A DNA stretch of 64,000 nucleotides from Flavobacteriales bacterium (GTDB lineage Bacteria > Bacteroidota > Bacteroidia > Flavobacteriales_D > Crocinitomicaceae): assembly GCA_947449575.1 (NCBI GenBank), contig CANFRV010000002.1, positions 124,001 to 188,000 on the forward strand. Reading direction: 5' to 3'. Below are positions 1 to 13,436 of the stretch, in pieces. A program made the position numbers and the translations under genes. Each line of letters opens with the position of its first letter. Position 1 is the first letter of the stretch. The notes beneath the pieces are model-generated. The model saw nothing but the letters and a program-made list of their open reading frames with translations, had not been told where the DNA came from and ran no database searches.

Positions 1-1212
1 AATGACGAAGAATTTATAGAAGCTTTTCAAAGTGTTTTTGAGCAGTCAATATCAACAAGAATGAATAGTGATAAACCAATTTCTGCGCTTTTAAGTGGTG
101 GGCTTGATTCATCAGCTATCGTTGGTATGTTGGCTAAAATACTTGAGAAAAAGAATCAAACCTTAAATGTTTTTTCTTCCGTACTTCCTGAGGATCAAAA
201 GACAAAGTTTAAGGATGAAAGATATTACATCGATCAATTTAAAGATAGATCGAATATCAATATACACTATGTTTCTGATTCCAATTTAGGAGTGATGAGT
301 AGTAAATTGTTTTCAGAAACGCAATTGATTAACCCTTTTTTTTCGTCTAGAATTTTTTTGTATGAAGCATTTGAAGAAAAGGCAAAACAATTTGGATCCG
401 AAATAATTTTTGACGGTATAAGGGGAGAAATTGGACCATCTTGGAATGCGAATGGATGTTACACTGAAATGTTTTTCGGAGGAAAATGGTTGATGCTGAA
501 AAATGAATTGTTAGGTAACAGTAAGCTAAAATCAAGATCTTTGATAAATTCAATAGGTAGAGAATTGGTAAAACCAATTTATAATTCTTTGGCAAATAAT
601 GGTGTGATTTCAAAAAAAACGATTTCTAACGTTTCAAATAGTCATTGTTTAACTGAAGAGTTTGTGCGTTATCTTTTTGATTGTAAAGATGTTAATAGTG
701 TTATTGAATTGCGTAAACACAAGGGATCCTTGTTTAGTGAGAAGGAAAACCATTTAGAAATATTAAGAAAAGTACAGGAAAAAGCTAATTCAAGACAACA
801 AAGCCCTAATGTTGAATATATGCTTCCATACACTGATGTCAGATTAATTGAATTTTGCTTAAATCTGCCACTCCATTATAAAGTAAGAAATGGATATCAA
901 CGTTTTCCTATTAGATTAGGGCTAACTGGCTTAATACCAGAGGAAATACAGTGGAGAATATCAAAAATGCCTTTTTCTCCAGATTATTATCGAAGATACA
1001 ATCAACAGCTAAATTTAATGTATACTTTTATCGATGATATTCCTCCAGAAGATGAGGTCAGAAAGGTTGTTGATTTTGTTAAATTGAAATCATGGTTGGA
1101 TGTTAAAATTAATGACAATGAGATTAGGCCAGTGGAACAAAATATTGCTTTGTTTTTGGTTCCTTCTGCTATTTTTTTGATTCAATTTCTTCGCAGATTT
1201 AAATCCTTTTAA
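1..1212 (+). CDS. Lasso peptide cyclase (asparagine synthetase-like, C protein), 5' end outside window
   Basis: ATP-dependent cyclase expected to adenylate the side-chain carboxylate of a core Asp/Glu and join it to the core N-terminus, forming the lasso ring. The PP-loop SGGLDSS lies at residues 13-19 counted from the Met at base 61, followed by the synthetase fold to the C-terminus (PYTDVRLIEFCLNLP segment, as in AsnB-like enzymes). The reading frame is open from base 1 with coding-like sequence (FIEAFQSVFEQSIS before the Met), matching the linker before the PP-loop in AsnB, so the Met at 61 is internal. The N-terminal glutaminase-like domain must lie upstream. One base separates it from the next gene, so it heads a same-strand run to base 6656. 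Cyclase rather than true asparagine synthetase is inferred from the precursor, protease and exporter nearby. Confidence 0.85.
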   Translation, partial: NDEEFIEAFQSVFEQSISTRMNSDKPISALLSGGLDSSAIVGMLAKILEKKNQTLNVFSSVLPEDQKTKFKDERYYIDQFKDRSNINIHYVSDSNLGVMSSKLFSETQLINPFFSSRIFLYEAFEEKAKQFGSEIIFDGIRGEIGPSWNANGCYTEMFFGGKWLMLKNELLGNSKLKSRSLINSIGRELVKPIYNSLANNGVISKKTISNVSNSHCLTEEFVRYLFDCKDVNSVIELRKHKGSLFSEKENHLEILRKVQEKANSRQQSPNVEYMLPYTDVRLIEFCLNLPLHYKVRNGYQRFPIRLGLTGLIPEEIQWRISKMPFSPDYYRRYNQQLNLMYTFIDDIPPEDEVRKVVDFVKLKSWLDVKINDNEIRPVEQNIALFLVPSAIFLIQFLRRFKSF

Positions 1213-1213
1213 A

Positions 1214-2131
1214 ATGGAAAATGAAAAGATAGTATTTATTTTAGGGATAATGCCTAGGTCAGGAACCCATTTTATAGCAAATTTAATCTGTAAACATCAA
1301 AATTGTCAAAGTACGCTAATACCAGAAGATTTTTTTATTGCAAATGTTAAAAATTTAAATAGATTTTCAAATGATTTAGTTCATACATGGAAAAAGCAAA
1401 AACATTTTGAAATTGAAAATATCAGCGAACTTCAAAGGGCTTTAAAATTCAATCTAGGAAGGTCAATTACTGAATTTATAGTTAACTCAGTACACAAAAA
1501 AAAAAAATGGGATGATAAGAAGAACAAAGATTTGTTTTATGTTACAAAGACCCCTTCAACGGAAGGTATTCAATTTTTTGATGATTTTTTTAATGATCAA
1601 AAGTTAATTGTTATCATAAGAGACATACGAACGTTAATGGAATCTTTTCAAAAATCATTTGCTAATGATTTTGAATTAATTGCGAGAGAATGGGTAAAAC
1701 AAGCAAGAGCTTTGATGTTTTTTTCAACTAAAAAATCTAAATATCATCTCGTTAAATATGAAGAATTACATACTGATTACAAAAAAGAAATTACAAAGGT
1801 GATTCAATTTTTAGGTTTAAGCATGGAGGAATATGATATGAATTCTGCTGAAAAACTTCCAGTTGTAGGTTCGTCTAATTTTAAAAGAGGGGAGGGGAAG
1901 ATTCATTGGACACCTGTTAAAAAGGATGATTCATTCCAACCTTTAAATTCAGCAGATAATTGGCCAAGGTGGAAACACGAAAGAATAAATTGGATGTGTA
2001 AAAAGGAGATGTTACATTTTGACTATAAACCCAAGACTTTTCAACATTGGAAATTTATCTATACTATCTGGAACATTTACAAGGATATAATCTGGTTTGT
2101 GTATAAAAAACGCCTTAGAATAAAAATATAG
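1214..2131 (+). CDS. PAPS-dependent sulfotransferase, first copy (lasso tailoring candidate)
   Basis: 305 residues with the sulfotransferase fold signature: a 5'-phosphosulfate loop at residues 11-20 (GIMPRSGTHF) and a 3'-phosphate-binding segment with Arg and Ser (IIRDIRTLMES) near residue 140. It would move a sulfuryl group from PAPS onto a hydroxyl or similar acceptor. The gene starts 1 base after the cyclase and 5 bases before a peptide kinase, so it is translationally tied to lasso biosynthesis. Sulfotransferases are known companions of kinases in some lasso clusters. The acceptor is not visible; core Ser11, Thr16 and Ser18, or an added phosphate, are possibilities. A second, divergent sulfotransferase lies at 5766-6656 and an APS kinase at 12306-12950. 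Confidence 0.8.
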   Translation: MENEKIVFILGIMPRSGTHFIANLICKHQNCQSTLIPEDFFIANVKNLNRFSNDLVHTWKKQKHFEIENISELQRALKFNLGRSITEFIVNSVHKKKKWDDKKNKDLFYVTKTPSTEGIQFFDDFFNDQKLIVIIRDIRTLMESFQKSFANDFELIAREWVKQARALMFFSTKKSKYHLVKYEELHTDYKKEITKVIQFLGLSMEEYDMNSAEKLPVVGSSNFKRGEGKIHWTPVKKDDSFQPLNSADNWPRWKHERINWMCKKEMLHFDYKPKTFQHWKFIYTIWNIYKDIIWFVYKKRLRIKI

Positions 2132-2136
2132 CATTT

Positions 2137-3117
2137 ATGAATTCTCACTTTTATCATATTTATGGACTTGTAATACAGAGTGATCGACCTATTAGTTTAC
2201 TGCAACTTATTCCAAGTGAAGATTTTGTGGATTTAAAAGTTCGATGGTTGGTTAAAAACGAGTCTTCAAACGAAATCGAGAATTCATGGCATAGGATTAT
2301 AACGATTGATTTAAAGTTGAGAAAAGGAATTAAATTTTGGAAGCAAAAGACAATATATGGGTTTCTAAATAAAATCAGTCTTGATACGAATCGTGGGACG
2401 GTAGATTTTGTTTTAAGTGAAGATCAAAATAATTTAGATATTTTTTATGAAAGCAACGATTGCTTTTCTGACCTTGATTCATTCTTTGTAAGTTCTATTT
2501 TAGGAGTTGTCTTAAGGTTAAGAGAGGTTGTTTGTCTTCACGGTTCTGTTATCAATATTAATGGTGAAGCAATTGTTCTTTTAGGTAAAAAGAGAAGTGG
2601 AAAATCAACGAATGCTGCTTATTTTTCTAAATTGGGTTATCAAATATTAAGTGAAGACATTGTTGTAATTAAAAAAGAGTCGTCAATTTTTTATGTGGAA
2701 TATGGATATCCTAAAGTAAGGTTGAGACCTGAGGCTTTCGATTTTTTTGTAGAACCTGAGTTGAGAGAAAAATGCAAGAGCGTATATTCTGATAGGGAAA
2801 TTAAATACATTGATGTAAAATGTTTACCTTCTAACACTAAACTTCCTTTAGGAGGAATTTACTATTTAAATCATAGTGGAGATAACAACGATCAACCTTT
2901 TATTCAATCTGTAAGTGTGAGCGAAACTCTTCTACTGTTGCAGTCAAATACGTTTTGTAGTTATATAATAACGCCAAATTTAAGAAAAAAAGAATTTTTC
3001 TTTTTGGCTAATATTTCCAATTGCATTCAATTTAAAACTTTAAATGTTGTTCACGATTTTAAACTTATAGATCTTCAAACTCAATTGATTCTTCAAAATA
3101 TAAAAAAAAATAGGTAA
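2137..3117 (+). CDS. HPr kinase-like lasso peptide kinase, copy 1
   Basis: 326 residues. The N-terminal half begins with the HYxIYGLxIxSD-like opening common to HprK-related proteins of lasso clusters, and the C-terminal half is an HprK-type P-loop domain with Walker A LLGKKRSGKST near residue 150 and a downstream acidic SEDIVVI strand. Characterised relatives in Firmicutes (the paeninodin kinase family) phosphorylate the C-terminal serine of the precursor; the precursor encoded just downstream ends in Ser, which fits. The gene sits between a sulfotransferase and the precursor. A role in HPr regulation is unlikely because there is no PTS gene here and a second copy lies in the same cluster (8364-9284). 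Confidence 0.78.
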   Translation: MNSHFYHIYGLVIQSDRPISLLQLIPSEDFVDLKVRWLVKNESSNEIENSWHRIITIDLKLRKGIKFWKQKTIYGFLNKISLDTNRGTVDFVLSEDQNNLDIFYESNDCFSDLDSFFVSSILGVVLRLREVVCLHGSVININGEAIVLLGKKRSGKSTNAAYFSKLGYQILSEDIVVIKKESSIFYVEYGYPKVRLRPEAFDFFVEPELREKCKSVYSDREIKYIDVKCLPSNTKLPLGGIYYLNHSGDNNDQPFIQSVSVSETLLLLQSNTFCSYIITPNLRKKEFFFLANISNCIQFKTLNVVHDFKLIDLQTQLILQNIKKNR

Positions 3118-3146: not shown

Positions 3147-3154
3147 TAACTTTG
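3147..3154 (+). promoter_or_regulatory. Bacteroidota -7 box upstream of lasso precursor
   Basis: TAACTTTG is an exact match to TAnnTTTG and ends 14 bases before the precursor ATG. The -33 region is only T-rich, without a clear TTTG. It suggests that the precursor can be transcribed separately from the enzyme genes upstream, as expected for a peptide substrate needed in excess. Confidence 0.55.
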
Positions 3155-3168
3155 AAAAAAAATAAAAT

Positions 3169-3330
3169 ATGAAAGAGAATAATATTGTTTCAGAAGATTT
3201 AAATACACCGGGTAAAATTCCTTACATAGCACCTGACATTACAGAAATTGGCAGCTTGTCTTCACTAACACAGCATGTTCCAGGCGTAGGTCCAGATGGT
3301 GATTCTTGGCCAGATTGCACGCGTTCTTAG
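3169..3330 (+). CDS. Lasso peptide precursor (A), 53 residues
   Basis: Short ORF between the kinase and hydroxylase genes. It carries the full lasso leader recognition motif with exact spacing: Tyr19, Pro22, Ile24 (Leu position), Gly28, Thr34. Thr34 is the usual penultimate leader residue, so cleavage is predicted after Gln35, giving the core HVPGVGPDGDSWPDCTRS. Core position 8 is Asp, allowing an 8-residue macrolactam from His1 to Asp8; Trp12 and Arg17 are possible steric plugs. There is one Cys, so no internal disulfide. Core His1 is unusual, since Gly, Cys, Ser and Ala are more common; a 9-residue ring starting at Gln35 is the alternative. The C-terminal Ser18 fits the neighbouring kinases and Trp12 fits the halogenase. 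The gene is short but has a -7 promoter box, 14 bases upstream. Confidence 0.9.
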   Translation: MKENNIVSEDLNTPGKIPYIAPDITEIGSLSSLTQHVPGVGPDGDSWPDCTRS

Positions 3331-3351: not shown

Positions 3352-4512
3352 ATGAGTCTCGAATCTTTTTTTTCGAATTTTTTTTTTGAAAATTATTGGG
3401 AAAAAAAGATTTTTCACATAAAAGAGCGAAATTTTATTAATTCAAATGAGTTAATTGACGAAATAGATTTTTTTCTGAGCCGAAAAGATGTGCATTTGTC
3501 CAATGTTAGAATTGTGACAAAGGGTATAGATATACCCTCTAAATTGTATTCTTATTCAAGCAGAAATTTAAAGGGTGTTGAGGAGTTTTTCGTTGAACCT
3601 TTATCATTAATTACACATTTTAATGAAGGAGGTACTATAGTTATTAATTCAGCTAATGAATCTATATCTATTCTTAGAAAATTATGTTTTGATTTTGAAA
3701 AAAAACTAAACATGAATTTTCAGGCAAACATCTATATTACTCCTCCGAACTCTCAGGGGTTTAAGCCTCATTATGATAATCATGATATTTTTTTATTTCA
3801 AGTCAAAGGGACAAAATTGTGGAATTTCTACAAGGATGGATTTGAATTAGCAACTAATTTTAGCCGAAAAAATGAAGTAAATGAAATTGATTTTTCACTT
3901 TCACTAGAGGAAGAGGATTTATTGTATCTTCCAAGGGGAATAGTTCACGAAGCATTTTCCGAAAATCAGTCTTCCATACATGTGAATTTTATTGGAAAAC
4001 CGCGCTATGGATTTAACTTAGTAGAAGATTTTGCGAATCTTGTTCAGGATAAATTTGTTTTTTTTAGAAAAACAATGCCTACAAAATATTCAGACAATGA
4101 AGAAAAACAAAAATATTTATCACTTTTTAAAGAAAATATTAAACAAGTGATTGATAATTTTAGTTTTGAAGATTTCAATGAAAACCTTTCAAATAGTCAT
4201 TATAAGACATCATCACTTAATTTATCGGGTAGATTTCGTAATATTATAGAAGTTGATAACATAACTGAACAAACAGAAATCAAGGCTAACTTTAATATGT
4301 GTGTTCTTATAAAAGAAGAAAATGGTGATTTAATTATTAAATTAAAGGATATTCAAATGATCATCCCAAAAATTATTGATTCTTCTTTCGTCAACAAGTT
4401 GACTTCATTTAAAGTTAAAGAAATTCAAGGATTGTTATCGAATAAAGGGAAAATTGAATTTGCAAAACAATTAATCAGGTTTGGTGTATTTGAAATAGTG
4501 GACTTGACATGA
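3352..4512 (+). CDS. JmjC/cupin_4 Fe(II)/2-oxoglutarate hydroxylase (lasso tailoring candidate)
   Basis: 386 residues resembling the ribosomal oxygenase group (YcfD, MINA53, NO66). The start has the family's FFxNYWEKKxxHI segment (residues 11-22). The metal triad is visible as His140-x-Asp142 (FKPHYDNHD) and His199 (LPRGIVHEA), with the KGTKLWNFY strand at 152-160 that is typical of the family. Such enzymes hydroxylate Arg or His side chains of ribosomal proteins; a different Fe/2OG enzyme hydroxylates Asp in the lasso peptide canucin. The core offers His1, Asp8/10/14 and Arg17. It lies 21 bases after the precursor and its stop overlaps the next start by 4 bases, indicating an operon. Which residue it acts on is inference. 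Confidence 0.8.
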   Translation: MSLESFFSNFFFENYWEKKIFHIKERNFINSNELIDEIDFFLSRKDVHLSNVRIVTKGIDIPSKLYSYSSRNLKGVEEFFVEPLSLITHFNEGGTIVINSANESISILRKLCFDFEKKLNMNFQANIYITPPNSQGFKPHYDNHDIFLFQVKGTKLWNFYKDGFELATNFSRKNEVNEIDFSLSLEEEDLLYLPRGIVHEAFSENQSSIHVNFIGKPRYGFNLVEDFANLVQDKFVFFRKTMPTKYSDNEEKQKYLSLFKENIKQVIDNFSFEDFNENLSNSHYKTSSLNLSGRFRNIIEVDNITEQTEIKANFNMCVLIKEENGDLIIKLKDIQMIIPKIIDSSFVNKLTSFKVKEIQGLLSNKGKIEFAKQLIRFGVFEIVDLT

Positions 4513-4952
4513 TTCTTAGCTTTGTTTTTTTTTTCGCTGTAATATTCGTGTTGGCTTTTATAACTTATAAGGGAATAGAATTTTATCCTTTTTCTTCCTT
4601 TCCAATGTTTTCTAATTATCTAGAAAAAGAACAAATAAAAATTTATAGAATTTTACTGAAAAATGATTTGGGACAAGTAGAGTGGTGGAATCCCAGGTTT
4701 GACCGTTATCAGATTTATATTGGCTCTGAGCTCAAAAAATGTTATTCAACACTTGACTCACAAATAGTAAATAGAGCTATTATTAATCTAAATAAAAAAA
4801 AGATATTGAGATTTGTGCACGAAATGATAATTTGTGATAATGTTAATGATTTTAAGATTGATACATTTGAAATTATAGAAAGAAAAAAAACAGAAAATTG
4901 TATTGTTGAAGTTACCGTTGATGTTTTTAGGCTAGAAGAACTACTAAAATGA
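4509..4952 (+). CDS. Small membrane-anchored partner of HTTM protein
   Basis: 147 residues: one N-terminal membrane helix (about residues 3-20) followed by a FYPFSSFPMFSNY segment and a soluble domain of mixed strands and helices. No catalytic motif was recognised. The start overlaps the hydroxylase stop by 4 bases and the stop overlaps the next start by 4 bases, so it is co-translated with both. Small proteins with a PFSxFPMxS segment are often found before HTTM-domain genes; here too it probably forms a complex with the downstream HTTM protein. Its function in the lasso cluster is unknown. Confidence 0.65.
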   Translation: MILSFVFFFAVIFVLAFITYKGIEFYPFSSFPMFSNYLEKEQIKIYRILLKNDLGQVEWWNPRFDRYQIYIGSELKKCYSTLDSQIVNRAIINLNKKKILRFVHEMIICDNVNDFKIDTFEIIERKKTENCIVEVTVDVFRLEELLK

Positions 4953-5797
4953 ATATAACAGAAAATTTACAGTACATTTCATTTAATCTTTTTGTCAAGT
5001 GTTATTGTTTTGTATTAGCAATTATATTTCTTGTAAATAGTCATAATCAACTTCTTTATTTTAAATCTAATGTTAAGAGAAAATACATTAATTCTCAAAA
5101 AATATTTAATTTAATTACAATACCACTTATTACAAAAAAAGTATTTGTTTTTTATGGATTTTCATTTGTTATTTCTTTGATTTTTATTGTTTTTGATTTT
5201 TTTACCACCATATCAGGATTGTTGGCTATTTTTTTTTATTTCATGTATTTCAGTCAAATACAGTCTCTTTCGTATATTCAAAGGAAAACAAATACGATAC
5301 CAATCATATTATTGGTTATTGTGGTTTCTAGTATTTATAATTTTCCGACTTACATTTTTGGTCATGTTTGGGAAATATTGCTTTTAAAAATAGTATTTTC
5401 TCAAATGTATTTATCGGCAGGGATCAATAAAATTAGATTAGGAGGATTAAGATGGTTAAATGGGCATTCGACCCAAGCGTATTTATTAGAAAATTATCTA
5501 TGGAATGGGAATAAATTGACTTTATTAATCTCTAATAATATTGTTTTTTGTGCTTTTTTAAGTTATTTAATTTTCTTATATGAAGTAAGTTTTTGGATAA
5601 TTATTATTTATCCGCAGTTTACCTTATTTTTTGTATTATTTTCTCTTTCTTTTCACTTATCGACAAATTATTTGATGAAGATAAATTATTTAAAATACTT
5701 AGCTCCTTTCTATTTCATTTTTTTTATAGATAACAAAACTTTCATTTTTGAATTACTTAAATATTATGATCAATTTATCCTATTTTTCAAAAGATGA
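4949..5797 (+). CDS. HTTM-domain (vitamin K carboxylase-like) membrane protein
   Basis: 282 residues with several membrane helices. The segment YLSAGINKIRLGGLRWLNGH (about residues 150-170) followed by STQAYLL matches the conserved core of HTTM proteins, the bacterial relatives of the gamma-glutamyl carboxylase membrane domain, including a lysine near the position used as catalytic base in that enzyme. Bacterial HTTM proteins mostly lack a proven reaction. It overlaps both neighbours (4 bases upstream, 32 bases downstream by the ATG at 5766), so it is an integral operon member. It might modify, bind or export the peptide at the inner membrane; the core has Asp but no Glu residues, so classical gamma-carboxylation is not supported. 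Confidence 0.65.
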   Translation: MNITENLQYISFNLFVKCYCFVLAIIFLVNSHNQLLYFKSNVKRKYINSQKIFNLITIPLITKKVFVFYGFSFVISLIFIVFDFFTTISGLLAIFFYFMYFSQIQSLSYIQRKTNTIPIILLVIVVSSIYNFPTYIFGHVWEILLLKIVFSQMYLSAGINKIRLGGLRWLNGHSTQAYLLENYLWNGNKLTLLISNNIVFCAFLSYLIFLYEVSFWIIIIYPQFTLFFVLFSLSFHLSTNYLMKINYLKYLAPFYFIFFIDNKTFIFELLKYYDQFILFFKR

Positions 5798-6656
5798 ACT
5801 GCTTCTTCAATTGAGAAGCCATGTGGGATTTATCCCAACACAGATTCTTTTTGAAGAAAATAAAATAGTGTGGACTGATGTTGGTAAATATCATTTTTTT
5901 GAGAGTTTTTTTCATCGTTCCATTAGTAACTATATTACTCTGAATAAGGGAAAAGTTACGCAATTTTACACCGATTTAAGTGTGTTAGAAGATAGTGATA
6001 TTCTTTCACCTTATATATACCCAAATGGTTTTATATTTCATTTTGGACGATCTGGTTCAACATTGTTGGCAAAGGCATTTTCTAGTTCGAAGAAAAATTT
6101 AGTGGCTAGTGAACCAAATATTCTCAATCAAATTCTTCTAAAGCAATTTAGAACTGATAGTAAAGGTTTTTTTGAAACAGAAAAGTCAAAAATCATGTAC
6201 AAAAATTTGGTTTTATTGTTACTATCAAGAAGGTTGAAATCACATGAAAATGCGATCATTAAGTTTACTTCTTTCAATATTAATTTTTTGCAGACAATTT
6301 TAAATATTTTTCCAGATGTGCCTGTTGTTGTGCTTGAAAGGGATGTTTTTGAAATTGTAATATCTAACGAGAAAATTCCTATGGGTATGCAGAGTTTGTC
6401 ACCCGAAGATTTATTTTTTTTTACTAAAATTAAGGATTTTGACACCCAAAAGATAGTTGAAGTTTATAAACATTTTTTAATTAATTTTCATTATGAAAAT
6501 CTTTTGATTGTTAATTACACTGATTTAGCTGATAACTTTATTAAAATTATATCTCACTTTAAGTTGTCATTTTCTAGTGAAGAGATTGATTTAATGAAAG
6601 CTCAATTTAAATTTTATTCTAAAACTGATTTTAAAAAAAATCTCAATCAAAGTTGA
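5766..6656 (+). CDS. PAPS-dependent sulfotransferase, second copy
   Basis: About 296 residues. The P-loop FHFGRSGSTLLAKAF lies near residue 90, preceded by a roughly 85-residue N-terminal extension, and the 3'-phosphate segment VVVLERDVFEIVIS follows near residue 200. It differs clearly from the first sulfotransferase in sequence and layout, suggesting a different acceptor. ATG 5766 is preferred; the longer reading from TTG 5748 adds six residues and increases the overlap with the HTTM gene. Last gene of the forward run that begins with the cyclase; the next gene is on the other strand. PAPS could come from the APS kinase at 12306-12950. Confidence 0.75.
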   Translation: MINLSYFSKDELLLQLRSHVGFIPTQILFEENKIVWTDVGKYHFFESFFHRSISNYITLNKGKVTQFYTDLSVLEDSDILSPYIYPNGFIFHFGRSGSTLLAKAFSSSKKNLVASEPNILNQILLKQFRTDSKGFFETEKSKIMYKNLVLLLLSRRLKSHENAIIKFTSFNINFLQTILNIFPDVPVVVLERDVFEIVISNEKIPMGMQSLSPEDLFFFTKIKDFDTQKIVEVYKHFLINFHYENLLIVNYTDLADNFIKIISHFKLSFSSEEIDLMKAQFKFYSKTDFKKNLNQS

Positions 6657-6743
6657 TTTCTGTTTTTTTTAGTACTTTAAGCTATGGATATAAAAAGTAA
6701 TTATCAATTAATAATTCCAGATTACTTTCTTTCGTTTTTTAAT

Positions 6744-8282
6744 TTATTCTGTTGTTTCAAACCAATTTTCGATAAGGTTAAACGGTTCTTCTTCTATAAT
6801 AGCTAAAGCTTCTTTATGAGGGATAGCATGATTTACTAAAAACTGATTTATTTTGTATATATTTTCCCATTTCTTCTTTTCCATTAAATTATTTTTGGCT
6901 TCGTTTTCAAAAAATTCGGAATTGACCCCAAGGCCTACCAAATTAATATCAAAAGCGGAGGTCCCGAAAATAATATCTTTGTTCATTTTACTATAAATTG
7001 GGTGCGATGGGTGCCTGTGAATAGGACCTTTTTGCATAAAATAGTCAAGATAATCTTCAATTTCATCAACATCAATGTTTTCTTGGCATTCTTTCCAGAA
7101 TGGAGTTGATAATTTATGATTATATTTAAAATGTATTGCAATGAAATATTTTAGATAATCCCAAGATTTGTTAACTTTTGTGTTGTATTTCAATCGTGAA
7201 TCAGCAATCTCTATATTATTCGATAATGATTTCACAAAGCGTTTTAATTGAAAAATAATCATGTGAATTCCTGTTGACTCAATAGGTTCTATAAAAGAAA
7301 ATGAATTACCAATAGCAATTGTGTTTCCTTTCCAACTGTTTTCATAGCGGCCAGTTTTGAATGATATAACTTTTTCATTATTTATACTAGTACAATGTTT
7401 CTTTAATTCAGAAAAAGCTTCGTCATCACTGCAGAATTCTTCCCCAAAAACATAACCAAGATGATCAACTGTTTGAGTAGGAGTATTCCATAGCCATCCA
7501 TGATTTAATGTACTGGCAGTGGTGTACGGCTTAATGTTATTTTCATTATTTCGACTTCCTATGATTGCTCTGTTTGTTTTCAGGCTAGAAGAGTAATCAA
7601 TCCATTTACTATCTAAAGATTTACCCAATAATAGAGATGAAAAGCCTGTACAGTCTACATATAAATCATATTTTAAAATGCAATCATTGTTTGTAATTAA
7701 GGTTTCAATACCCTTATTTTCATCTACTACTATCGCTTTTTTTATTGTAGTGTCTAAATAAATGCATCCACTTTGAGCTAATTTTTCTTTTAAAAATTTA
7801 ACTAATAGTTCATTGTCTATATGGTAAGCAAAACCTTTATCTAGTTTAATTTGGGTAATCTTATTTTTTATTCTTATTAAAGGGGATTTATTTGCAGACA
7901 TTAACATAGCTGAAATATTACTATCATTAATATTTTTGTTATAACACATCGCTTCATAAATGTTATATGTGCCAAATGGATTATTGTAATGATAATTTCC
8001 TGTTTTACCAAATTCAAATTTTACGCCTAATTTTAATGTTGGTTTTGTTTTTTTAAAAAAATCTTGAATATTGTAACCTAATGTTTTGTGTAAAAAATTC
8101 ATGATCAATGGAGTTGTAGCTTCACCTACACCGATAATTGGAATGCTTGAGCTTTCAATTAAAGTGACTTCTTTTTCGGGATATGTTTTTTTTAAAAATA
8201 AAGCCGAGAAATAACCAGCACTTCCTCCACCAATTATTCCAATCGTTTGTATTTTGTTTTCTGATGAAATTTTGTCAATCAT
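6744..8282 (-). CDS. Flavin-dependent tryptophan halogenase
   Basis: 512 residues, the usual length for the family. The FAD-binding GGGSAG is at 18-23 and the GVGEATTP segment at 51-58; a lysine in TLKLGVKF (Lys84) sits where the catalytic Lys is expected. The halogenase WxWx(I/T)P motif appears as WLWNTP at 263-268, with Thr in place of the usual Ile, and the EPIESTGIHM segment at 332-341 contains the conserved Glu335. It should use FADH2, O2 and chloride or bromide to halogenate an aromatic ring; a partner flavin reductase is not in the window. The only Trp of the predicted lasso core (Trp12) is the obvious candidate substrate. It has its own consensus promoter (8304-8334). Halogenation of free Trp or a leader-bound peptide cannot be separated from sequence. 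Confidence 0.85.
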   Translation of the reverse strand: MIDKISSENKIQTIGIIGGGSAGYFSALFLKKTYPEKEVTLIESSSIPIIGVGEATTPLIMNFLHKTLGYNIQDFFKKTKPTLKLGVKFEFGKTGNYHYNNPFGTYNIYEAMCYNKNINDSNISAMLMSANKSPLIRIKNKITQIKLDKGFAYHIDNELLVKFLKEKLAQSGCIYLDTTIKKAIVVDENKGIETLITNNDCILKYDLYVDCTGFSSLLLGKSLDSKWIDYSSSLKTNRAIIGSRNNENNIKPYTTASTLNHGWLWNTPTQTVDHLGYVFGEEFCSDDEAFSELKKHCTSINNEKVISFKTGRYENSWKGNTIAIGNSFSFIEPIESTGIHMIIFQLKRFVKSLSNNIEIADSRLKYNTKVNKSWDYLKYFIAIHFKYNHKLSTPFWKECQENIDVDEIEDYLDYFMQKGPIHRHPSHPIYSKMNKDIIFGTSAFDINLVGLGVNSEFFENEAKNNLMEKKKWENIYKINQFLVNHAIPHKEALAIIEEEPFNLIENWFETTE

Positions 8283-8303
8283 GTAATAATTTTTGCTTGT
8301 TTA

Positions 8304-8334
8304 CAAAGATATTAAAATATATAAGTGATTCAAA
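8304..8334 (-). promoter_or_regulatory. Full-consensus Bacteroidota promoter for the halogenase
   Basis: On the minus strand TTTG (8331-8334), exactly 19 bases, then TATCTTTG (8304-8311): a perfect match to TTTG-N19-TAnnTTTG. The halogenase ATG follows 21 bases downstream. Confidence 0.75.
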
Positions 8335-8363
8335 TGTGATTCCTCTTATTCTAAAAATATACT

Positions 8364-9284
8364 TTATTTATTAATTTCCAAAATTCTTTTTTCTATAAAT
8401 TTTAAACTTTCTTGCATACACTGTACTTTAGATGAACGATTAAAATAATTCATTTCGACTGTTGAAATTAAATTCAATAAAACATTGGCATTAAGCTTAA
8501 ACGTCGGAAGAAGAGCTCCCATTTTTGCTCTATATATATGTCTTGTAATTTCTTTTAGTCTATTACTACCTTTCAATTCAATAATTTCATTAATATTCAA
8601 GTTATCATTGAATTCAGGAAAATAAATATGAGAAATTGGATATTCGGAAGACTGATCCATATTCTTCATTGGGAAGGAATATTTCAAAATGTTTGCTGGA
8701 ATTATGTCGAGACCTTCAGGTGATTTTCCAATTCTCTGTAATGCATCTTTTGATAATTTAATCCTTGGAACTGAAGGTAATGCAGTTGCTTTACCGAATT
8801 TGTTGACATAGATATTTGTAACATCATCAGCTAAAACAGTGTATCCTTTGGCATAAAAATAGGCTGCTAAGCTAGATTTACCTTTTCCAGTTTTTGCACA
8901 AAATAAAACAGCTTTATTGTTAATAACAATTGATGCAGCATGTAGAGAAAAGTTACCTAAACAATTTGACAAGAGCATAGAAAGTGATCCCAATATGATC
9001 ATTCGAATATAGGCTTCGTCATTTTTTATGAGAGGTGTCATTTCAATATCTCTATTGTTCCAAATCGCAATGAATCCCAAGTTATCATGATTTATGCAAA
9101 CTAAATTTTGTTCTTCATTTCGATAAACGGGAGTCTTTAATGCTTCTTTTGGAACTTTATGATCAATGCTTTTAGTAATTGTGATACTTCCATTTATTTT
9201 TTCTTTCGACGAAATAAGTTCTGGAAATTCGACATTTGTTTCAAATGTATAACCAGATAAATGATATGCGTATTTTTTTTCCAA
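8364..9284 (-). CDS. HPr kinase-like lasso peptide kinase, copy 2
   Basis: 306 residues with the same layout as the kinase at 2137: an N-terminal beta-rich half opening with YHLSGYTFETN, then an HprK-type domain with Walker A FCAKTGKGKSSLAAYF near residue 130 and a Walker B-like YTVLADDV. The P-loop is closer to the canonical form than copy 1. The two kinases could add successive phosphates (polyphosphorylation by a lasso kinase is known), act on different residues, or one could prepare the substrate for the nucleotidyltransferase. It lies 81 bases upstream of the halogenase gene on the same strand and is divergent from the exporter. Substrate assignment is inference. Confidence 0.78.
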   Translation of the reverse strand: MEKKYAYHLSGYTFETNVEFPELISSKEKINGSITITKSIDHKVPKEALKTPVYRNEEQNLVCINHDNLGFIAIWNNRDIEMTPLIKNDEAYIRMIILGSLSMLLSNCLGNFSLHAASIVINNKAVLFCAKTGKGKSSLAAYFYAKGYTVLADDVTNIYVNKFGKATALPSVPRIKLSKDALQRIGKSPEGLDIIPANILKYSFPMKNMDQSSEYPISHIYFPEFNDNLNINEIIELKGSNRLKEITRHIYRAKMGALLPTFKLNANVLLNLISTVEMNYFNRSSKVQCMQESLKFIEKRILEINK

Positions 9285-9296
9285 CTATTTTTTTTC

Positions 9297-9304
9297 CAAA
9301 GTTA
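9297..9304 (-). promoter_or_regulatory. Bacteroidota -7 box for kinase copy 2
   Basis: TAACTTTG on the minus strand ends 12 bases before the ATG at 9284. A TTG 22 bases upstream could be the -33 element. Confidence 0.55.
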
Positions 9305-9383
9305 CGAATAGATTTTTAGCCATAGGCAATATTCAGTTCTAAATGCTTAATTTTGTTATCGTTTTAATAAATATAGGTGGAGA

Positions 9384-11108
9384 ATGAAAGAATCAATTTC
9401 GTCTTTGAAATGGTTAATAAAAGGCTTTGATAAAAAAGGGTACTTGTCTTTGATCCTTTTTATTTTTCTTGGTTTTTTTCAAGGTGTTGGTATTGTTTTG
9501 TTAGTCCCAATGCTTTCTCTTACTGGTATGAAAAATACGTTGGGAGGAAATGAAAGTTCATTGATTACAAATGCAAGAGATTTTTTGAATGCATTCCATA
9601 TCCCGATTACTTTTGTAAGTGTCTTAATTTTGTTTTTGATTATTATCTTTTTATATGCTATTTTAAAGTACAGCAGTACGCTTTTGAACAGTAAGATTTC
9701 TCAAGACTTTTCCAATAAATTAAGGAAAAAATTGCACCATGCTATCATGGAAACGGAGTGGATCTCAATTATTAAAATAAGAAGTTCAGACTTGGTAGGA
9801 ATGCTCTCAAGAGAGATTAGTCAAATTTCATTTGGAATTACTACTTTAACGCAGCTTATTGGGGGCATTATTCTACTTTTTACAAACATCGGGATTGCTT
9901 TATTAATATCTCCTCAAATTACGCTGTATGTATTGGGGTCGGCAAGTGTTTTGTTTGTTATCCAACGTAAATTATTTTCTACCTCTTTAGAAAATGGGAA
10001 AAGAAACATGAATTTACTGAAATTTTTACAAAGTAATTTACAAGAACATTTTCAGAATATAAAATTGGCGAAAAGTCAAAATTTAAATGATCATCAAAAA
10101 AAATCGTTGGATAAAATTTCAAATGACATGAACGATAATCAAGTAGCTTTTACTAAAACAAAAGCAAAATCTGATTTTTCTTATGATGTTGGATCAGCAG
10201 TAATGATTTGTATATTTTTGTACGTAACTTTCGTTGTTTTTTCTGAGCCAATTTTGGATTTGGTACTTTTAATGTATGTTTTTTCTAGAATTCTCCCAGG
10301 ATTTAAATCACTTTTCACTCAAATTCAAACTCTTCTAAATATTGTGCCTATCATCAAGGATGTGAAAGAAAAAATTGCACTTTTTGAATCGAATAAAGAA
10401 AACATTGGAAAAGAAGATTTGGAATCCATACAATTAGAAGAACAATTTGAAATAAAAAATATTACCTTCCAATATTCTGCAGACAAAATTATTTTAGAAA
10501 ACACATCGCTATTAATTCCAGCTTCTAAAATAACGGCAATAACTGGGAATTCAGGTGCAGGTAAAAGCACCTTAGCAGATATAATCACTGGATTGTTGAA
10601 ACCATCAGCAGGGCTAGTGTTGGTAGATGGAAAGGAATTATCTGAAATTGGCTACAAAAATTGGAGAAATAGTGTTGCTTATATGACACAAGAGCGTTTT
10701 TTGTTTCATGATTCGATACGTAATAACTTATTGTGGTCAAAAGGGGATGCGACTGAAGAAGAAATTTGGGAAGCGTTAGATCAGGCCAATGCAAAAGAAT
10801 ATATTCAAAATTTACCTAAAGGAGTGGATACAATTGTTGGGGATAGGGGAATTCGACTTTCAGGAGGCCAACGGCAGCGAATAGCATTGGCAATGGCTTT
10901 AATTCGTAAACCATCTCTCTTAATTCTAGACGAAGCGACCAATGAATTGGATGAAAGCAATGAAAAAGAAATTTACGATACGATTTTCAGATTGAAAGAC
11001 AAGATGACTATTTTTATTATCACCCATCGTTTGTCTTCAATGAAAATGGCAGACCATCCTTGGCAAATAAAAGATGGGCAATTTCAAAAATGGGTTGAAT
11101 CGAATTAA
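9384..11108 (+). CDS. ABC exporter, fused permease-ATPase (lasso D protein)
   Basis: 574 residues: about six membrane helices in the first 300 residues, then a nucleotide-binding domain with Walker A GNSGAGKST, signature LSGGQRQR, Walker B LLILDEATNELD and switch His in IITHRLSS. A half-transporter expected to act as a homodimer, exporting the mature lasso peptide and giving self-protection, as McjD does for microcin J25. There is no N-terminal C39 peptidase domain, consistent with leader removal by the separate B2 protein. It is transcribed divergently from kinase copy 2 and its stop abuts the convergent nucleotidyltransferase gene (11109) with no gap. Confidence 0.88.
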   Translation: MKESISSLKWLIKGFDKKGYLSLILFIFLGFFQGVGIVLLVPMLSLTGMKNTLGGNESSLITNARDFLNAFHIPITFVSVLILFLIIIFLYAILKYSSTLLNSKISQDFSNKLRKKLHHAIMETEWISIIKIRSSDLVGMLSREISQISFGITTLTQLIGGIILLFTNIGIALLISPQITLYVLGSASVLFVIQRKLFSTSLENGKRNMNLLKFLQSNLQEHFQNIKLAKSQNLNDHQKKSLDKISNDMNDNQVAFTKTKAKSDFSYDVGSAVMICIFLYVTFVVFSEPILDLVLLMYVFSRILPGFKSLFTQIQTLLNIVPIIKDVKEKIALFESNKENIGKEDLESIQLEEQFEIKNITFQYSADKIILENTSLLIPASKITAITGNSGAGKSTLADIITGLLKPSAGLVLVDGKELSEIGYKNWRNSVAYMTQERFLFHDSIRNNLLWSKGDATEEEIWEALDQANAKEYIQNLPKGVDTIVGDRGIRLSGGQRQRIALAMALIRKPSLLILDEATNELDESNEKEIYDTIFRLKDKMTIFIITHRLSSMKMADHPWQIKDGQFQKWVESN

Positions 11109-12305
11109 CTATTTTGACTTCTTAAATCCTTTGAGGGAATCAACAAATACGCGTTTAAGATAATAGAACGGAAGTGAACTTTTATTTTTTATTGAATAAT
11201 TTCGCATCATAAATTCTTTACTAGGAAAGAACAAATGTAATAAGAAACGTATTTTTTTCCCATTTCCATCAATCGATTGAAATTTTTCGAATTTATGTTT
11301 GAAATTAATTTTTGATAAATAAACTTCTATTTCTTCATGATTATTTCGGAGATAATTTACAAAAAGATATTGACAGTCGATCAATGAATTTCCTTTAAAT
11401 TTTTCGAGTACATTTGATTCTATAGGAGTTTCAAAATAAGCTTTACAAATGGAAAGAATTTCTCTTACTTCATTTACGCAATTATATTGGATGCTTCTTT
11501 CTAGTAATTGCTCCCAATTAATTTCGGTTTGATATTTAGTAATAACTTCAGAAATATCACAAAAATGCTTTAGAGTAATGGATTTTTCATCAATTAAATG
11601 CTTGTGAAGGTGAATACATAAATGTTGAATAAAATCCATTAAGTGAAAATGATAGGCGGAATTTCCATAAAAATCAATTTTACTAGATCGATCCCAATAA
11701 TCATTGATATTGATTTGATAGGAATATAAACTAGGGTGAAGACTTTTGTGCAATTCAACTTTGGTTTTACCCAAGACAAACGTATAGGGATGATGAGTTT
11801 CGCTCACTTGAGCTATAAAATTTGATTCAATAGGATCATCATATATTTCCCATTTTGAATTTAAAAATATATTTTTACATGTTTCAATGTCTTTTTCTTT
11901 AACAAGAATATCTATATCTGACATACTCCTCAAACCACAATCTTCGTAAATGTATTTAATTAGAATCAACCCTTTTAATGGAACGAAATCAATGTTATTC
12001 TCATTTAATTGTTTTGCTATAGCAGAGAAATCTTTTATTTTTAACGTATTTTTAAATAAGATGTTTATGTATTCTTTTTTTAAATTCGCTAATAAAAAGG
12101 CAGGTATTTTTTCTGAATTTGGAAGCTTTTTAAAATTTGAATAAACGAAAGGAGCTAATCCGTTTTGGAATATTTTTTTTGAAAAAGCAGGCCAATCGGA
12201 TATTTGTGAAATAAAATCATTGATAACAAGAAGTTCGTCTTTGCTAAGTTGTAACTTAGAACAAAGTAAGAGGATGTGTTCTTTTGGCGTTAATTTTAAA
12301 GACAT
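11109..12305 (-). CDS. NTP_transf_5-type nucleotidyltransferase (lasso cluster-associated)
   Basis: 398 residues. The nucleotidyltransferase core is seen as LKGLILIKYIY (110-120) followed by LRSMSDIDILV, where Asp130 and Asp132 are the metal-binding pair; this KG...SDIDIL arrangement is typical of the NTP_transf_5 group. Such proteins recur in RiPP and lasso clusters, often with HprK-like kinases and sulfotransferases. A plausible job is transfer of a nucleotide to a phosphorylated or free hydroxyl on the peptide, but no reaction can be read from sequence. One base separates its start from the APS kinase stop, so the two are co-transcribed. Confidence 0.72.
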   Translation of the reverse strand: MSLKLTPKEHILLLCSKLQLSKDELLVINDFISQISDWPAFSKKIFQNGLAPFVYSNFKKLPNSEKIPAFLLANLKKEYINILFKNTLKIKDFSAIAKQLNENNIDFVPLKGLILIKYIYEDCGLRSMSDIDILVKEKDIETCKNIFLNSKWEIYDDPIESNFIAQVSETHHPYTFVLGKTKVELHKSLHPSLYSYQININDYWDRSSKIDFYGNSAYHFHLMDFIQHLCIHLHKHLIDEKSITLKHFCDISEVITKYQTEINWEQLLERSIQYNCVNEVREILSICKAYFETPIESNVLEKFKGNSLIDCQYLFVNYLRNNHEEIEVYLSKINFKHKFEKFQSIDGNGKKIRFLLHLFFPSKEFMMRNYSIKNKSSLPFYYLKRVFVDSLKGFKKSK

Positions 12306-12950
12306 TTAGACAGTTTCTAATTTAGTCATTAAGTAATCGTAAATAATGGTGACACATTCTTCAATTTCAAATGCTTCGGTGTCAATAATTATTTCTGAAT
12401 GAGTAGGTGTTTCAAAGCTAGATGAAATACCAGTAAAATTAGTCAAATTACCAGTTCGGGCTTTTCTATACAAGCCTTTCACATCTCTCTTTTCACATTC
12501 TTCAATACTACAATTTACATAGACTTCTATAAAGTTTTTTTCACCAATAATATTTCGAGCAAGTGCTCTCATTTTTTCAGAAGGCGTAATAAATGAACAG
12601 ATGGTAATAAAATTACTTTCTACAAATAGTTTCGCTATTTCAGCGGCACGTCTTATGTTTTCCATCCGATCGTCCTCGGTATATCCTAATCCTGCATTAA
12701 TTCCATTTCTTAGTATGTCGCCATCTAATTCTTTACAGTTTAACTTAATTTTATTTATTTTTTCATAAAGCGCATTGGCTAAAGTGCTTTTTCCGGCACC
12801 TGAAAGTCCTGTGAACCATATAGAGATACCAGTAGAATTATCACCGTTGAATTTTTTATTTATCAAAATTGTTGTTATTTGTCGTTCAAAGATAAGAAAA
12901 CAAATTAATTTCAAATCTTGGGCTCGTTGTTTAGAGATTGTTTTGTTCAA
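12306..12950 (-). CDS. cysC: Adenylylsulfate (APS) kinase
   Basis: 214 residues. GISIWFTGLSGAGKSTLANAL at 41-61 contains the P-loop (48-55), followed by LDGDILRNGINAGLGYTEDDRMENIRR, the classic APS kinase sulfate-nucleotide segment, and a GLYRKARTG lid. It converts APS to PAPS, the donor used by sulfotransferases. A gene for PAPS supply inside a cluster with two sulfotransferases is strong context evidence that sulfation is part of the pathway. No cysD/cysN ATP sulfurylase is here; APS must come from elsewhere in the genome. The first 38 residues precede the kinase fold and may include a misplaced start, but no better in-frame ATG is seen. Confidence 0.88.
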   Translation of the reverse strand: MNKTISKQRAQDLKLICFLIFERQITTILINKKFNGDNSTGISIWFTGLSGAGKSTLANALYEKINKIKLNCKELDGDILRNGINAGLGYTEDDRMENIRRAAEIAKLFVESNFITICSFITPSEKMRALARNIIGEKNFIEVYVNCSIEECEKRDVKGLYRKARTGNLTNFTGISSSFETPTHSEIIIDTEAFEIEECVTIIYDYLMTKLETV

Positions 12951-12982: not shown

Positions 12983-13436
12983 ATGTTTAAAAAGGTATCT
13001 AAGGTTTTTCAACATTTTGTTTTTGGTTCTTTTCGTAAGAAAAGATTGTATTTGGAAGCTTTAAAATGGTCTATTGTTATACGTTTTTGTATGGTTTTTT
13101 TTACCATTTAAATACTATCGAGGACTTTTTGGTAAATCACAAGAAGCTACAGTCACCAATTATGATGAAAAACAACTAGAAGATGCATTGAAAATCACAA
13201 ATATTGTTTTGTCAATTTCTAGAAACACTCCTTGGGAAAGTAAATGTCTTGTCCAAGCATTAAGTTGTAAAAAAATGTTGCAAAAAAGAGGTGTTATAAC
13301 GACCCTATATTTGGGTGTTTGCAAGGATTACAATGACAAAGAATTAGCTGCTCATGCTTGGTTGAAAATGGGGGATTTCATTTTAACGGGTAGGAGTGGG
13401 CATAAAGATTTTAAAGTTGTAAATTATTATAGTTAA
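12983..13436 (+). pseudogene. Lasso leader protease B2, interrupted by +1 frameshift in a T8 run
   Basis: Transglutaminase-like cysteine protease that removes the leader. Starting at ATG 12983 the frame reads MFKKVSKVFQHFVFG... to LEALKWSIVIRFCMVFF, then hits TAA. In the next frame the family continues as LPFKYYRGLFGKSQE through TPWESKCLVQALSCKKML (catalytic Cys in KCLVQAL), AHAWLKMGDF (catalytic His) to the stop at 13436. The break falls in a run of eight T at 13095-13102; seven T would give an uninterrupted 150-residue protein, the normal B2 size, reading RFCMVFLPFKYY across the join. It could be a homopolymer sequencing error, a real mutation, phase variation, or slippage. The second part alone could start only at a TTG (13074), lacking the conserved N-terminus. 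Confidence is for B2 identity with a frame break. Confidence 0.85.

Follow-up and report, generated by a model that had tools for sequence, protein, structure and literature searches.

Does the open reading frame (ORF) of 53 codons at 3169..3330 (+ strand) encode the precursor of a lasso peptide, and if so, what product would the enzymes encoded around it make? The window, by which we mean the whole stretch of 64,000 nucleotides that was analyzed, corresponds to G000:C2:124001-188000 of a 3.5 Mb genome, which we assign to Bacteroidota from its gene content and relatives. The ORF begins with ATG, ends with TAG, and its translation, written as leader|predicted core, is MKENNIVSEDLNTPGKIPYIAPDITEIGSLSSLTQ|HVPGVGPDGDSWPDCTRS. 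Residues 1-35 constitute the leader peptide (3169..3273, +), in which Y19, P22, I24, G28, and T34 come to lie at positions −17, −14, −12, −8, and −2 when Gln35 is −1, and the Thr(−2) rule then predicts the core HVPGVGPDGDSWPDCTRS (3274..3327, +). In a published alignment of lasso leaders, YxxPxL occupies positions −17 to −12, and position −2 is conserved, in most cases as Thr (PMC10368454); the ORF carries such a YxxPxL-type leader with Thr at −2 in exact spacing. The translation and motif positions given in an earlier note on this DNA were exact, and its placement of the ORF between a kinase and a hydroxylase gene was confirmed: the precursor starts 51 nt past the stop codon of an HPr-kinase-like gene (2137-3117), and a JmjC_2 oxygenase gene (3352-4512) follows 21 nt downstream on the same strand, so that the precursor is embedded between same-strand genes of a tight operon. 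The GC content of the core is 53%, compared with 29% for the cluster. A Bacteroidota −7-like element, TAnnTTTG (TAACTTTG; 3147..3154, +), precedes the start codon by 14 nt, and as this motif occurs 56 times on the + strand of the window, which is about chance expectation, the element is weak evidence.

The identification as a lasso precursor, already proposed in the earlier note, is supported by motif statistics and by a complete core pathway consisting of B1, B2, cyclase, and ABC exporter. A motif filter that demanded the exact leader spacing, a start codon, a core of 8-45 residues, and D/E at core positions 7-9 gave one match in 80 kb (the window and the 16 kb preceding it) versus one in 4.8 Mb of an order-2 Markov control, and when it was applied to 0.84 Mb of other loci, the remaining matches (L062, L127, L129, and L130) were all within lasso-gene loci. 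The generic NCBIfam lasso leader model NF033521 would miss the precursor, which scores 16.1 bits at a cut-off of 19. Since the window opens inside the cyclase gene, B1, B2, and the cyclase start had been out of sight for the earlier note. The 3' part of the lasso cyclase gene (C) occupies 1..1212 (+), and the gene starts at G000:C2:123392 (L002:15392) in the upstream stretch L002. The cyclase of 606 residues contains an SGGLDSS loop, and the lasso cyclase model NF033535 is its best match of all models (E 4e-89), followed by asparagine synthase TIGR01536 (1.6e-46); the NF033535 score is 300 bits at a curated cut-off of 525, and the TIGR01536 match is likewise below its cut-off. No close relative of the cyclase was found, the best match having ~31% identity, and a scan of genome contigs with the cyclase as query gave only ~24% matches. 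In the same upstream stretch, B1 matches PqqD (PF05402, E 4e-16), with the lasso PqqD model NF033536 as best NCBIfam match below its cut-off, and B2a reaches 41.3 bits with the lasso B2 model NF033537, above the cut-off of 33. The locus thus encodes A, B1, B2, and C, the complete essential set, together with an ABC transporter with fused ATPase as exporter D (9384..11108, +). We conclude that 3169-3330 very probably encodes a lasso peptide precursor.

Precursor searches in 395 genomes of the class and 240 genomes of the family gave low-scoring matches only and no homologous precursor with which Asp8 or any other core residue could be compared. Of the matches that were checked, those in G351 and G411 were rejected as they lie inside or antisense to long unrelated ORFs, and the match in G103 is a genuine lasso precursor whose core is unrelated. 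Lasso B2 was detected in 17 of the 395 class genomes and, among 12 genomes of the genus, in the source genome only. We compiled 18 Bacteroidota cores from lasso-B2, same-genus, and JmjC-associated loci. Their first residue is G (8), S (3), K (3), then V, A, N, or H, and 13 of them end with Ser or Thr. The earlier note had called His at core position 1 rare, and His1 is indeed unique in this set, yet 10 of the 18 cores start with a residue other than Gly. Most of their leaders, as in most of the Bacteroidota kinase clusters, have a W..P...T spacing of 13 residues; a spacing of 15 residues is found here and in L062, L127, L129, and L130. Two JmjC-associated precursors (L057:9776-9952 and L059:14435-14608) have the cores GGTLSCNSPGDDSWYTS and GGGGGPSPSGDDSTTYDS, and the Thr(−2) rule places their first acidic residue at position 11, outside of 7-9. 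A small ORF from the same genus (L113:2497-6935), with the core AGVPGVTSDAACSVLS, adjoins a cyclase-like gene and an AMP-ligase/carrier protein; its core and HVPGVGPD have VPGVxxD in common (random chance ~0.3% over 17 cores, post hoc), which comes nearest to indirect support for Asp8, but as its genome has no B2, it is not a proven lasso precursor. Other loci showed further features: L051 encodes four distinct precursors of the lasso type, each with Arg/His-Thr at its end, and in L056, L120, and L126, inspection by eye revealed two or three tandem small tail-collar-like proteins (GEIRAFAGDYAPVNW...) and a recurring formyltransferase-like gene near the lasso genes.

Judged by sequence, we consider it highly probable that the ORF encodes a class II-type lasso precursor with predicted cleavage after Gln35, a predicted His1-Asp8 ring, and predicted decoration by the enzymes of the cluster; the core has one Cys only and therefore would be without an internal disulfide, as expected for class II. 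We infer the cleavage site, the ring, the threading, and every modification of the product. The macrolactam requires Asp or Glu at core positions 7-9, and Asp8 is present there. The earlier note regarded cleavage after Gln35 as fixed, which is the best prediction but too strongly worded, as Ile or Val at −2 is known in other lasso leaders (PMC10368454). The 8-residue ring to Asp8 also stands as the best prediction, tempered by the two JmjC-associated precursors, in which a cut one residue past the motif Thr leaves no acidic residue at 7-9. These exceptions, together with the unusual His1, would suit a lasso precursor with another cleavage site or ring, for example with closure on Asp10 or with an N-terminus other than His. 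We regard this as unlikely, as no Thr other than Thr34 is correctly spaced from Tyr19, positions 7-9 contain no acidic residue besides Asp8, and the register is that of characterized YxxPxL leaders.

Signs of decay have to be weighed as well. A second B2 protease gene (B2b, 12983..13436, +; NF033537, E 3e-20) outscores B2a with the lasso B2 model, and a frameshift in a T8 run (13095-13102) splits it, with the N-terminal part in one frame and the Cys/His part in another; this may reflect a sequencing error, decay, or slippage. With kinase and B2 genes in pairs but a single precursor, the locus may have arisen by fusion of two clusters, and of the 12 genomes in the genus, only one contains it. 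That the cluster is dead or decaying, with the precursor as a relic and no lasso peptide made, could account for this, but B1, B2a, cyclase, precursor, ABC transporter, and all tailoring ORFs are open, and their genes overlap in the manner of a tight operon, which makes this reading very unlikely. A different RiPP that uses the PqqD/asparagine-synthase-like set without threading is highly improbable: threading is invisible in sequence, and the genus does contain the similar small ORF by a cyclase-like gene and an AMP-ligase in a genome that lacks B2, but for each of B1, B2, and the cyclase of this locus, the best-scoring model is a lasso model, and the core contains Asp8. That the ORF arose by chance between the tailoring genes could be argued from its length of only 53 codons and the missing homologues, but is hardly credible in view of the rarity of motif matches in the control, the elevated GC content of the core, and the position next to the kinase in a lasso operon.

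In kind, this orphan precursor is unremarkable, although its His1 is unusual. More notable, and more informative than His1, are the tailoring genes around it, whose enzymes predict an unusually heavy decoration with chlorine, sulfate, hydroxyl, and phosphate groups. Genes for sulfation are prominent among the tailoring genes. Two sulfotransferases are encoded, ST1 (1214..2131, +; Sulfotransfer_3, E 1.4e-16) and ST2 (5766..6656, +; PF13469, E 1.9e-6, above cut-off), as well as an APS kinase (12306..12950, −; PF01583, E 5e-57), which makes PAPS. This APS kinase is the sole one in the genome, and CysD is on another contig; PAPS supply therefore appears, on genomic grounds, to be dedicated to the lasso cluster. 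As the core lacks Tyr, sulfate would need Ser, Thr, an enzymatically added hydroxyl, or an added sugar, and with three oxygenases and two sulfotransferases present, "hydroxylate, then sulfate" is a natural hypothesis, not a result. A sulfotransferase gene has been noted in some Firmicutes lasso clusters (PMC8498205), and we found no demonstrated sulfated lasso peptide in reviews of the open-access literature, where a report could have been missed. Among the relatives, Sulfotransfer_1 genes are in or near the lasso loci of G200, G031, G157, G126, G114, and G073, and in several of these loci, the sulfotransferase directly adjoins an HPr-type kinase. In L120 (G073; 4958-12367), genes for sulfotransferase, HprK, B2, cyclase, CysD, and a CysN/APS kinase fusion are grouped, and we propose L120 as a second candidate sulfated lasso cluster, independent of the locus described here. 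Together, these comparisons suggest that Bacteroidota lasso clusters have a looser first core residue, and that a sulfotransferase next to the HPr-type kinase is a frequent feature of them.

The predicted core contains a single Trp12, a single Cys15, and the C-terminal Ser18, and for two of these residues, candidate modifying enzymes are encoded. A flavin-dependent tryptophan halogenase of the peptide type (6744..8282, −; PF04820, E 9e-97) has MibH as its best solved match (5uao, E 3e-97), followed at a distance by 9luq (6e-53). MibH is the peptide halogenase of a lanthipeptide, and for ChlH, which halogenates the lasso peptide chlorolassin at the stage of the linear precursor, an identity of 58% to MibH is reported (PMC12518702). 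The combination of a peptide-type FAD halogenase with a core Trp is thus found here as in chlorolassin. No flavin reductase was recognized within the cluster. When 17 other genomes with a lasso B2 were searched, strong halogenases of this family were seen in G200 alone, both of them in a lasso locus, where the precursor ends with GDDSWYTS; the best plasmid halogenase match was discarded as a RiPP parallel, as it is part of an NRPS cluster. Two HPr-kinase-like proteins are encoded. HprK1 (2137..3117, +), whose Hpr_kinase_C match is below cut-off, aligns with a catalytic set H-K-E-D and carries Glu where relatives carry Asp, and HprK2 (8364..9284, −) aligns with the intact H-K-D-D set that is reported to be essential (PMC9266682). 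Kinase-associated lasso cores end in Ser, the paeninodin rule (PMC8498205, PMC9266682), and Ser18 together with HprK2 agrees with this. An NTP_transf_5 nucleotidyltransferase (11109..12305, −; PF14907, E 3e-53) is a possible counterpart of PsmN.

Three Fe(II)/2OG-type oxygenases belong to the cluster. The JmjC_2 enzyme (3352..4512, +; PF08007, E 1.5e-21) has NO66/MINA histidyl hydroxylases as nearest solved structures, and two 2OG-FeII_Oxy_3 oxygenases in the upstream stretch share 35% identity and both contain the HxD...H residues. The kinship of the JmjC_2 sequence with NO66/MINA and the His1 of the core raised the idea that this enzyme hydroxylates His1, yet His is missing from most cores of the related JmjC clusters, which lend the idea no support. 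A scan of viral contigs with the JmjC protein found nothing. Two proteins without assigned role, one of 147 residues (4509..4952, +), whose gene overlaps those on both sides, and one HTTM-like membrane protein (4949..5797, +; PF05090, E 3e-5, below cut-off), are encoded at 4509-5797 by genes that overlap one another and the JmjC gene, forming one operon. AlphaFold models of the HTTM protein (pLDDT 58) and of the second 2OG oxygenase (pLDDT 48) were too poor for structure searches.

From these assignments, a pathway can be proposed in which B1, as PqqD-type recognition domain, would bind the YxxPxI leader, and the tailoring enzymes would act mostly on the linear precursor, in analogy to PadeK/ThcoK, CanE, and ChlH. 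The halogenase would chlorinate Trp12, an HPr-type kinase would phosphorylate Ser18, with the nucleotidyltransferase possibly extending the phosphate, the three oxygenases would hydroxylate core residues, and the two sulfotransferases would O-sulfate the peptide with PAPS from the APS kinase of the cluster. B2a would cut after Gln35, and the cyclase would adenylate Asp8 and join it to the α-amine of His1, trapping the tail in the 8-residue ring. The ABC transporter would export the product. For the lasso peptide without modifications, the calculated [M+H]+ is 1863.808, to which Cl would add 33.961, OH 15.995, phosphate 79.966, and sulfate 79.957. As a tentative proposal, which we consider possible rather than probable, the lasso peptide would have a His1-Asp8 ring and carry sulfate, chlorine, hydroxyl, and phosphate groups, and the APS kinase of the cluster would be the only PAPS supply of the cell. 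If true, this would be the first demonstrated sulfated lasso peptide. With the sole APS kinase of the genome encoded in the cluster, the sulfation hypothesis becomes concrete and readily testable, and the pairs of halogenase and single core Trp, and of kinase and C-terminal Ser, are two further site-specific predictions for one short peptide.

Known systems resemble parts of this cluster. The paeninodin-type systems (PadeK, ThcoK) and pseudomycoidin (PsmK, PsmN) have in common with it the split B1/B2, the cyclase, an HPr-type kinase, a Ser-ending core, and a nucleotidyltransferase gene, but they come from another phylum, and here a halogenase, oxygenases, and an APS kinase are added. Chlorolassin shares the combination of a lasso cluster, a MibH-related Trp halogenase (ChlH), and a core Trp; its host, however, is an actinomycete, 5-chloro-Trp is formed at two sites, and the accessible part of the report describes no sulfotransferase or APS kinase (PMC12518702). 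An Fe/2OG oxygenase in a lasso system is also known from canucin A, where CanE acts on the lasso precursor (PMC9266682), whereas a JmjC_2/NO66-type enzyme and two 2OG-FeII_Oxy_3 enzymes are present here. A parallel to the leader register is BsfA of Bradymonas, which has YxxPxL at −17 to −12, is kinase-associated, and has a proposed 8-residue ring to Asp8 (PMC10368454); BsfA has Gly1 and Ile(−2), whereas the precursor described here has His1 and Thr(−2).
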